A stretch of 40,243 nucleotides of DNA, from NCBI GenBank assembly GCA_016932965.1, contig JAFGBW010000129.1, positions 1-40,243 of the forward strand. Direction: 5' to 3'. The number at the start of each line of letters is the position of its first letter. Position 1 is the stretch's first letter. Under the pieces are notes generated by a model. That model did no database searches. It was given only the letters and a program-made list of their open reading frames with translations, and was not told the DNA's origin. Below, in pieces: positions 36,228 through 39,688 of the stretch. The position numbers and the translations under genes are program-made. This DNA comes from Candidatus Auribacterota bacterium (lineage in GTDB: Bacteria; Auribacterota; JAFGBW01).

Positions 36228-37655
36228 TCAATAAAATTCGATCCTGGAAGGGATTTTATAATGCGACATGTTCTTCTTGCACCAGTCAATGAAGGCTTTT
36301 TGATTCCGTTCATCGGATTGAACCAGCTCCACCCTGCCCTTTACCACATCCCCTTCGAATTCATGAGAAACTCCTGTGATCTCCGCGTTTTTTACCTGTT
36401 CATTCTTTTTAAAAAACCGTTCCACCTCAGCCGGATAGACCTTTTTTCCTCCCACATTCAGCATCCGTTTTTTTAAGCCGGTGAGATACAGGTATCCGTC
36501 TTCATCCAGCTTTCCCAAATCCCCTGTATGCAACCACCCCCTGTTGAGAACGCTTCTCGTGGTTTCTTCACAAAGATAGTACCCTTTCATCACATTATCG
36601 CCCTGAACACAGACTTCTCCTATTTGATCGGCCGGCAATTCAGAACCTTCCTGATCCATGATGACTACGCGGCAGCCCGGAAATGCCCTGCCGACTGATT
36701 CAGGCTTGATCTTGTCCCCCGGACGGTGCCATGTACAGATCGGAGAGGCTTCCGTCAATCCATATCCCTCATGTAATTCAATTCCTGTCTTTTCAAGAAA
36801 ATGGTTAAACAATGAAACAGGCAGTTTATGCGCTCCGGAAACGCAGCTCTTTACGCTTTTCAATACCTGCTTTATTTCCGGATACTTCATCAAAAGATAA
36901 TATATAACCGGAGTGGTATATAAATTAGTAACCGTATGTGTCTCCACTGCATCGGCAATGGTTTTAATCTTCGTCAGACTGCTGATATCCTGGATCACCA
37001 TTTTTCCCCCTCCGGAGACAGGACCAAGCAATCCTGTCTGCAGTCCATACAAATGATGAAACGGAATGATCGCGCAGCTGATCGTGTCCGGTCCAATACA
37101 ATCTGCTTCGACTACTGCAGCAGCATTTGAAGCCATGCCCTTTTTAGTCAGCATGGCTGCCTTGGTAAAACCATCATCAGCAGCTGTATAAACCATGGTG
37201 CAAACATCATCCAATTCATGGCCGGCATGACGGGGTTTTCCATAATAAAAGAGAATTTCCTTTTGATAATCCCATTCTTCCTGCTTGTTATCAGAATAAA
37301 AAAAAGCAGCCGGCGGAGCGTCTTTGAGTATTTCATCCAATTCTAGTCCCCCTGTCTCCGGATCAATCAAAACAACAATCCTGCCTGTTTTGATAATGGC
37401 AAAATACGCGATCAGGGTTTTAATGTGATTGTAACTGATGAGATGAATAAACGGGGAGGAAGATAGGCATTTCTTATCAAGGAAAGAAGCCAAAGCATCA
37501 ATGGAAAAGGTCAGGATTTCGTTTGTATACGTCTTCCCGTTAAAAATAATGTCGTTGAAACGTGGGTTCTCAAAAAGCATAAAAAAACAAGAGCCATTCC
37601 TGAATTGACCCGAATTACCCCCTTTATGACTAATTTCCTCCCTTTTTAATTTCAT
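36228..37655 (-). CDS. ANL-superfamily acyl-AMP/acyl-CoA ligase, degenerate A3, C-terminally short
   Basis: HEGYGLTEASPICTW (A5), GWLHTGDLGKLDEDGYLYLTG (A7), KKRMLNVGGKKVYPAEVE (A8). Alternative start 37580 (MLFENPRF) avoids overlap with the ACP gene. Confidence 0.85.
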   Translation of the reverse strand: MKLKREEISHKGGNSGQFRNGSCFFMLFENPRFNDIIFNGKTYTNEILTFSIDALASFLDKKCLSSSPFIHLISYNHIKTLIAYFAIIKTGRIVVLIDPETGGLELDEILKDAPPAAFFYSDNKQEEWDYQKEILFYYGKPRHAGHELDDVCTMVYTAADDGFTKAAMLTKKGMASNAAAVVEADCIGPDTISCAIIPFHHLYGLQTGLLGPVSGGGKMVIQDISSLTKIKTIADAVETHTVTNLYTTPVIYYLLMKYPEIKQVLKSVKSCVSGAHKLPVSLFNHFLEKTGIELHEGYGLTEASPICTWHRPGDKIKPESVGRAFPGCRVVIMDQEGSELPADQIGEVCVQGDNVMKGYYLCEETTRSVLNRGWLHTGDLGKLDEDGYLYLTGLKKRMLNVGGKKVYPAEVERFFKKNEQVKNAEITGVSHEFEGDVVKGRVELVQSDERNQKAFIDWCKKNMSHYKIPSRIEFY

Positions 37656-37878
37656 TTTCCAGTGCAGCCAATAATTCTTCCAGGGTGCTGACTGTCATGA
37701 CCAATGCGGGGATTTCAATCTTGAATGCCTGCTCCAGCCTGGCGATGATCGCCACCAGTTGCATGGAATCCAGATTGGTTTGCTCCCTGAAATCCTTCTT
37801 CGGATTGATGACAGATAAATCCTCTCCTGTCTCTTTTTTTACGATATCAAACACCTTTTTCCTGATGTCTTCTGCCAT
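37630..37878 (-). CDS. Acyl carrier protein
   Basis: NLDSMQLVAIIARLEQAFKIEI with phosphopantetheine Ser; about 80 aa from the internal ATG at 37878 (MAEDIRKK). Confidence 0.88.
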   Translation of the reverse strand: MAEDIRKKVFDIVKKETGEDLSVINPKKDFREQTNLDSMQLVAIIARLEQAFKIEIPALVMTVSTLEELLAALENEIKKGGN

Positions 37879-37927
37879 AGCTGTCCCTTTCCTGATGCTG
37901 TTATCTCCTCCCATAACAAGATCAAAT

Positions 37928-39688
37928 TCACTGCCTCCTGATTTGGAGAAATTTCATAGTGCCGTTTTCAATCTCGTGAACCTTGCTTTGATTTTTATTC
38001 TGAACCAGTTGATACAGATTTTTTCTATTCCTGTAAACCATATACCATTCCATTCCGTATTCTATAAAACTCCGGTAATGAAACCCGTCCATAGACAGGT
38101 TAGAAATCATCATCTCTCCGGCGGATTTAATCTTCTGCCCAAGTTCCCTGATCACAAATTTAGCCACTCCATCGTCAAAATAATCAAACAAGCCAAATGC
38201 ATAGATGAGATCATATCTGGCGCTGTTCTTTTCCGCGCCAATCAGCCTCAAATATTCTCCTAACGTCTGGTGGATAAATTTGATCTGCATGTTGCTCCCG
38301 TACCTGATCCTGCTTTCGTATAATTTTTCCTGGGAAAATTTCAGGGCATTGATTTCCTGGTCCAGTAAAGTCAAGGATATCCGGCTCGAAATTTCAGGCT
38401 CATTTTTTAAGAGATGTTCGATCTCCAAAGAAGGACCCGAAGCGATGCTGAATATCTCCACGGGATCACGCCGGCGGCTGCGGACAAATTCCGCTATGTG
38501 ATGACTCAAGTATTGGGTCCTTTTTCTCGTGACCACCCCAGCGGCATTACTGGTTACAGATTTATTGAGAAGCTTGGAAAATAAAGTGTCCCCGTCAAAG
38601 CGGTTTTCATGAATGAGCTGCATGATGGCATAATCACCAGGATAACCTGAGGGCTTGAAATAACTACGATGAATGACCGGGGCAGACAAAAGAAGGGTCA
38701 ACAGATGTTTCTGAAAATAAGATTTATACAGGGAATTTTCAGCAGGAGATAATTTCAGCTTTCTGACGATATGATCGATCTGAATGATTTTCGAATCCAC
38801 AATGGGAAAATGGACTTCAAACAGCTCATTTAAGAGTTCCTCGGCGTCTTTCTCCCGGCTTTTAAATTTTGGGGATTCAAGATAACTTTTGCTGTCTTCC
38901 AGATAGGCCCTGAAATCCGCCACTGAACATTTGAATTCACTGTCAATATCCTGATATGAGTCATGCTGTTTGACGAGAGCCCTTGATTCCTCGGCAACCA
39001 TGGCAACAGACTGGATTTTCTCGGCCATTTCCACATCGATGACCTGTTTCCTCGGTTCTATGACGGTCCGGTTCTTCCCGGTTTTATCCTGATAAATTTT
39101 GGTAACAGTCGCGGAACCTTCATATAGCAGATGGTCCCCCATGAAAATCTGAACAGGATTTAACAGCGACCCGCTTCTTAAAAGCACGATATCATTGGAT
39201 TCATAATGAAAAGCAACGCTGTATTTTGAATAATCAATCAGCTCAAATTCATGAGTCCTACCATTCAACCCGAAACGGATAAAAGACTTGTTTTTAGTGT
39301 CCAGCAGGGAATAACGGACGGGCCTCAACTGAAAGGAATGTCCCATCACATCCCGGTAGCCGGCTTGCAATTCCAAGCCGATTTTATAGAATCTCTCGCC
39401 GTTTTCCCGGTAAAACGGGCTGTAATATCGGACAATTCCAAAATGCCTGGAACGCGTCTGATCTTCTGTGATTAGGAAAAATGAAAGGGGGGTGCCTATA
39501 AGAAAATAACCGTCTGAATAGGGAATAAAAAATGACAGACCGAATTCATCGAATTCATTGACTTTATAGACTGATTTCTTCTGATGGCCGAAGGAATGTT
39601 CGATTTCGATAAAAACCGAACTGCTTTCCAAAAGACAGGTTCGTATCCTTTTCCGTTTTTCTTCCCTATTGCTTGTTACAGTTGGCAT
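37928..39688 (-). CDS. PilZ-like N-terminal region fused to class I SAM-methyltransferase (PhcB-like)
   Basis: FGIVRYYSPFYRENGERFYKIGLEL resembles the PilZ C-terminal strand; YFKPSGYPGDYAIM, IFSIASGPSLEIEHLL, LTLLDQE, YDLIYAFGLFDYFDD methyltransferase features. Confidence 0.65.
   Translation of the reverse strand: MPTVTSNREEKRKRIRTCLLESSSVFIEIEHSFGHQKKSVYKVNEFDEFGLSFFIPYSDGYFLIGTPLSFFLITEDQTRSRHFGIVRYYSPFYRENGERFYKIGLELQAGYRDVMGHSFQLRPVRYSLLDTKNKSFIRFGLNGRTHEFELIDYSKYSVAFHYESNDIVLLRSGSLLNPVQIFMGDHLLYEGSATVTKIYQDKTGKNRTVIEPRKQVIDVEMAEKIQSVAMVAEESRALVKQHDSYQDIDSEFKCSVADFRAYLEDSKSYLESPKFKSREKDAEELLNELFEVHFPIVDSKIIQIDHIVRKLKLSPAENSLYKSYFQKHLLTLLLSAPVIHRSYFKPSGYPGDYAIMQLIHENRFDGDTLFSKLLNKSVTSNAAGVVTRKRTQYLSHHIAEFVRSRRRDPVEIFSIASGPSLEIEHLLKNEPEISSRISLTLLDQEINALKFSQEKLYESRIRYGSNMQIKFIHQTLGEYLRLIGAEKNSARYDLIYAFGLFDYFDDGVAKFVIRELGQKIKSAGEMMISNLSMDGFHYRSFIEYGMEWYMVYRNRKNLYQLVQNKNQSKVHEIENGTMKFLQIRRQ

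Follow-up and report, generated by a model that had tools for sequence, protein, structure and literature searches.

Among the closest described counterparts of the locus analysed here is the phc system of Ralstonia, which has the gene order phcB-phcS-phcR-phcQ (PMC8578825). Its quorum-sensing signal, a fatty acid methyl ester, is the product of the methyltransferase PhcB (PMC6989110, PMC8578825). PhcB signalling has been described in Ralstonia, and homologues are known from Cupriavidus and Paraburkholderia; an R22C mutation that alters Ralstonia quorum sensing lies outside the known PhcB domains (PMC6989110). The window, i.e. the whole stretch of 40,243 nucleotides that was analysed, is a contig of a Candidatus Auribacterota bacterium with a draft genome of 3.14 Mb (93% complete). 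It harbors a cassette of three genes, the first of which encodes a methyltransferase homologous to PhcB and carrying the GYxGD hallmark of these proteins (Table 1). Unlike the PhcB operon, the window encodes two PilZ-like domains, an acyl carrier protein (ACP) and an ANL protein, and it lacks adjacent PhcS, PhcR and PhcQ.

Table 1. Features of the three-gene cassette (window coordinates)
Feature	Position	Strand	Basis
PhcB-type SAM methyltransferase with YcgR-like tandem PilZ N-terminus, 586 aa	37928..39688	-	homologues, tree, fold matches
First predicted PilZ-like beta domain, aa 24-107, PilZN position of YcgR	39368..39619	-	models, fold matches, motifs
Second predicted PilZ-like beta domain, aa 119-222	39023..39334	-	models, fold matches, motifs
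GYPGDY motif, aa 348-353	38630..38647	-	GYxGD common to PhcB-type proteins
Rossmann methyltransferase core, aa 405-586; IASGP, LLD and GLFDYF motifs retained	37931..38476	-	motif comparison
Acyl carrier protein, 94 aa (likely start 37878)	37630..37914	-	PF00550, E 2.3e-11
Phosphopantetheine attachment serine (LDSM)	37765..37767	-	sequence
Divergent ANL (acyl-CoA synthetase-like) protein, 475 aa	36228..37655	-	PF00501, E 3.6e-55
Lost P-loop: YTAADDGFTKA versus YT(S/G)GTTGxxKG in homologues	37158..37190	-	alignment
Leu at A8 arginine position	36474..36476	-	Arg in 29/29 homologues
C-terminus ...YKIPSRIEFY-stop, short of A10 PxxxxGK segment	36228..36233	-	alignment; segment present in homologues

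The three co-directional genes called by the initial annotation are borne out by the reading frames, all of which are coding, with in-frame codon scores that match those of other genes of the window. The genes are tightly spaced, the ACP and ANL frames overlap, and the three are probably carried on one shared transcript. For the ACP the start at 37878, behind GGAAAGGG, is likelier than that at 37914, and the ANL protein may start at 37655 or 37580. The single promoter that had been proposed does not stand out from chance, with 11 promoter-like sites as compared to 7.7 ± 2.9 in shuffled sequences. A search for structured RNA upstream of the operon likewise gave nothing beyond a chance-level match. 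The contig ends only 555 bp upstream of the methyltransferase gene, and this stretch contains the end of another minus-strand reading frame.

Searches of Pfam and NCBIfam with the 586-amino acid protein alone gave zero matches, as did a sequence search of the PDB, and the methyltransferase and PilZ identities were drawn from homologues and from fold comparison. The homologues obtained by genome searches match methyltransferase models; for three of them PilZ also scores above the curated Pfam cut-off, as it does for the closest homologue. Scanning genome contigs with a profile from a two-member alignment yielded two relatives. Full-length relatives with 27-29% identity occur in one Auribacterota and one Desulfobacterales metagenome-assembled genome (loci L069 and L068), and both have the PilZ-PilZ-methyltransferase layout of the window protein. 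The best plasmid match, from Paraburkholderia graminis, is followed by genes for a sensor kinase and two response regulators; because these neighbours match the phcB-phcS-phcR-phcQ order of Ralstonia, we consider it the PhcB orthologue. It aligns to residues 165-582 of the window protein, its own N-terminal region included (23% identity, 126 bits). In a tree of 30 proteins a 97/95 split leaves both of them together, with homologues from Desulfobacterales and Auribacterota as the nearest neighbours of the window protein (83/73). The GYxGD motif was found in 31 of the 31 PhcB-type proteins examined, and the window protein, which is one of them, also possesses the SAM-binding core. These results uphold the proposed kinship to PhcB, and the sequence comparisons give good support for reading the first gene as that of an orphan methyltransferase of the PhcB type, the N-terminal half of which is YcgR-like and degenerate. 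By analogy with PhcB, the predicted product would be a 3-hydroxy fatty acid methyl ester.

The N-terminal half gave no match when residues 1-226 were searched against Pfam. AlphaFold, supplied with a three-row alignment, gave weak models, with a mean pLDDT of 52 for the entire protein and of 67 for residues 1-226, so that the fold matches rest on local geometry. With both of these weak models the top Foldseek matches were PP4397, MrkH, MotI, YcgR, VCA0042 and PlzA (E 7e-7 and 2e-6), all of them PilZ proteins with the PilZN-PilZ layout. The two domains also match each other (E 1e-4). In hhalign comparisons with PilZ proteins of the same genome the first domain matched weakly (probability 6%) and the second did not match. 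A PilZ fold, as initially suggested, is thus likely in view of the models and the closest homologue. The motifs are incomplete: RxxxR is present just ahead of the first domain (RKRIR, aa 12-16) and absent from the second, and the [DN]xSxxG motif is absent from both, being replaced by EFDEFG in the first and by DYSKYS in the second. In lacking [DN]xSxxG and in being fused to a methyltransferase, the window protein differs from YcgR, MrkH, PP4397 and MotI, the best fold matches of its first 226 residues, whereas a complete RxxxR and two [DN]xSxxG motifs are found in the L068 and L069 proteins. Since neither domain has the full set of motifs, binding of c-di-GMP by the PilZ pair is doubtful, and so is the c-di-GMP gating that had been envisaged. 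The probable role of the barrels, in which the c-di-GMP site is degenerate, is regulation or docking. In the Paraburkholderia orthologue the stretch before the methyltransferase aligns with the second half of the second PilZ-like domain. As this alignment starts inside a PilZ-like domain, PhcB itself probably begins with one, and the R22C mutation may fall in it.

The second gene encodes a stand-alone ACP, as originally called, with a PP-binding domain and an intact attachment serine. Four carrier domains, this one included, were found in the host genome. The closest outside ACPs (41-42% identity; L138, L139) are encoded in clusters whose other products include a ketoacyl synthase and two FAD oxidoreductases resembling phytoene desaturases. 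A row of genes elsewhere in the same genome (L141, C106:20000-29000) encodes UbiA, Oxidored_FMN, an ACP, an oxoamine synthase-like protein with an aminotransferase fold and a DAGK-like kinase; this row could serve sphingolipid-like synthesis.

The ANL protein is 29-39% identical to acyl-CoA ligases, in particular to PRK06187-like long-chain fatty acyl-CoA ligases, and retains the A5 and A7 motifs of these enzymes. In contrast, it has lost three elements that are nearly invariant in 29 homologues, namely the A3 P-loop, the arginine of A8 and the segment with the A10 lysine. The protein retains 47 of 64 conserved columns, as compared to 90-100% in the homologues. Losses cluster in the ATP-handling columns, with 7 of 12 affected as against 10 of the remaining 52 conserved ones (Fisher p 0.01, with the ATP-handling columns picked from general family knowledge after the alignment was seen). 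In ANL enzymes the A10 lysine is required for efficient adenylation. Judged from these motif losses, ATP-dependent acid activation or acyl loading by the ANL protein is unlikely. Of the ANL-fold ligase and its proposed loading of the ACP, the PF00501 domain stands, but the term ligase is too strong for a protein in which the ATP-handling motifs are missing. Being most likely unable to adenylate acids, it would be either a pseudo-enzyme that binds acyl groups or ACP, or a decaying gene. The short C-terminus was not ascribed to a frameshift, since the downstream sequence has no GK motif at the expected place; an assembly error is possible.

The same losses, together with the low column retention and a cassette linkage seen only once (see below), fit a remnant, in which the PhcB-type enzyme works alone and the ACP and ANL genes are chance neighbours, the latter a decaying copy of a fatty-acyl ligase gene. 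We regard this as rather unlikely, as the ANL frame is open for 475 codons with a normal codon score, the carrier serine of the ACP is intact and the genes are tightly spaced and overlapping.

A sample of 384 genomes, plasmids and GTDB contigs supplied 30 PhcB-type loci with GYxGD at which conservation of the linkage was examined, and 9 further loci came from a second phylum. An ACP/ANL pair beside the methyltransferase was found at none of these 39 loci (0/30 and 0/9), some of which reach contig ends, with a single-sequence ACP search that is insensitive. Conserved linkage of the three genes is thus not supported. At one locus (L067) an AMP-binding gene lies a few kb off, in a seemingly unrelated catabolic cluster. 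Since the survey provided no second example, the argument that the three proteins of the cassette would function together is one of adjacency. Gene content, the PilZ fold and PhcB kinship would suit the pathway of the initial annotation, in which a functional ANL ligase would charge the ACP with an acyl chain and binding of c-di-GMP to PilZ would turn methylation on. However, with the ATP motifs and catalytic lysine missing from the ANL protein, [DN]xSxxG missing from both PilZ-like domains and the linkage not conserved, we consider this pathway very improbable, and a working ligase-ACP-methyltransferase route gated by c-di-GMP is not supported. Of loading followed by methylation, the PhcB-like methyltransferase and the ACP are retained, and the ATP-using parts of the ligase are not.

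About 22 of the 39 PhcB-type loci adjoin a sensor kinase, as in phcBS. A histidine-kinase-type protein is encoded beside the methyltransferase at 14 of the 30 loci (15 counting the MASE8-like sensor protein of L076), and a PhcS-like sensor, either a kinase or MASE8-like, at 8 of the 9 loci of the second phylum. Unlike the window gene, the methyltransferase genes of L068 and L069 directly precede genes for a hybrid kinase with a MASE8-like sensor and for a receiver-kinase protein. Loci L068, L069, L075 and L144-L152, from Desulfobacterales, Auribacterota and another phylum, combine a PhcB-like methyltransferase with a downstream PhcS-like kinase that has a MASE8-like sensor. No phcS-like sensor kinase adjoins the cassette in the window, which reaches 555 bp upstream. 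The L069 sensor had no match in the host genome, nor had the MASE8 family (PF20968), for which the control genome G011 was equally silent.

Three of the 30 loci (L063, L065, L067) adjoin EAL/GGDEF genes, and at L086 the gene after that of the methyltransferase encodes a nucleotide cyclase domain. Such neighbours, and a weak similarity of relatives to CheR, would suit a nucleotide-signalling output domain that methylates a target other than a fatty acid, for example a protein carboxylate or a small metabolite, next to unrelated genes. This appears improbable given the product of the characterised relative PhcB and the occurrence of polyketide synthase-fused relatives in the same phylum. In the latter (L090-L092, Auribacterota genomes G038 and G032) the PhcB-type methyltransferase forms the C-terminus of a large KS-AT-KR-DH synthase, the domains of which were demonstrated for L090; by eye, the stretch ahead of the methyltransferase resembles a phosphopantetheinyl transferase. 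Shorter, more distant methyltransferases (ca. 280 aa, lacking GYxGD) adjoin apparent ketoacyl synthases at L089 and L093, the latter locus also harboring a GH3-type adenylase.

The reading that we prefer, tentatively and as possible rather than probable, is that of an orphan PhcB-type carboxyl methyltransferase lacking a PhcS-like kinase, encoded beside an ACP and a non-adenylating ANL protein, be it pseudo-enzyme or decaying. SAM-dependent methylation of the carboxylate of a medium- or long-chain, probably 3-hydroxy, fatty acid would give the methyl ester, and the ACP may present or release the acyl substrate. The synthase fusion shows that a carrier/synthase context exists in the same phylum; against this reading, members of the family are only about 20-30% identical and the substrate could have changed. 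It seems decidedly unlikely that the three proteins make up a dedicated synthase of a signal lipid, with a non-adenylating ANL pseudo-enzyme passing the ACP-bound acyl group on to a PilZ-controlled PhcB-type methyltransferase.

The cassette itself would matter chiefly if the ANL protein turned out to be a functioning pseudo-enzyme, and the by-product of its analysis may outweigh it in interest. Judging by the relatives, PhcB-PhcS-like modules are spread over several phyla, uncultured ones among them, and some of these modules have PilZ-type N-termini. It thereby becomes possible to test how widespread PhcB-like signalling is and what the N-terminus of PhcB does.
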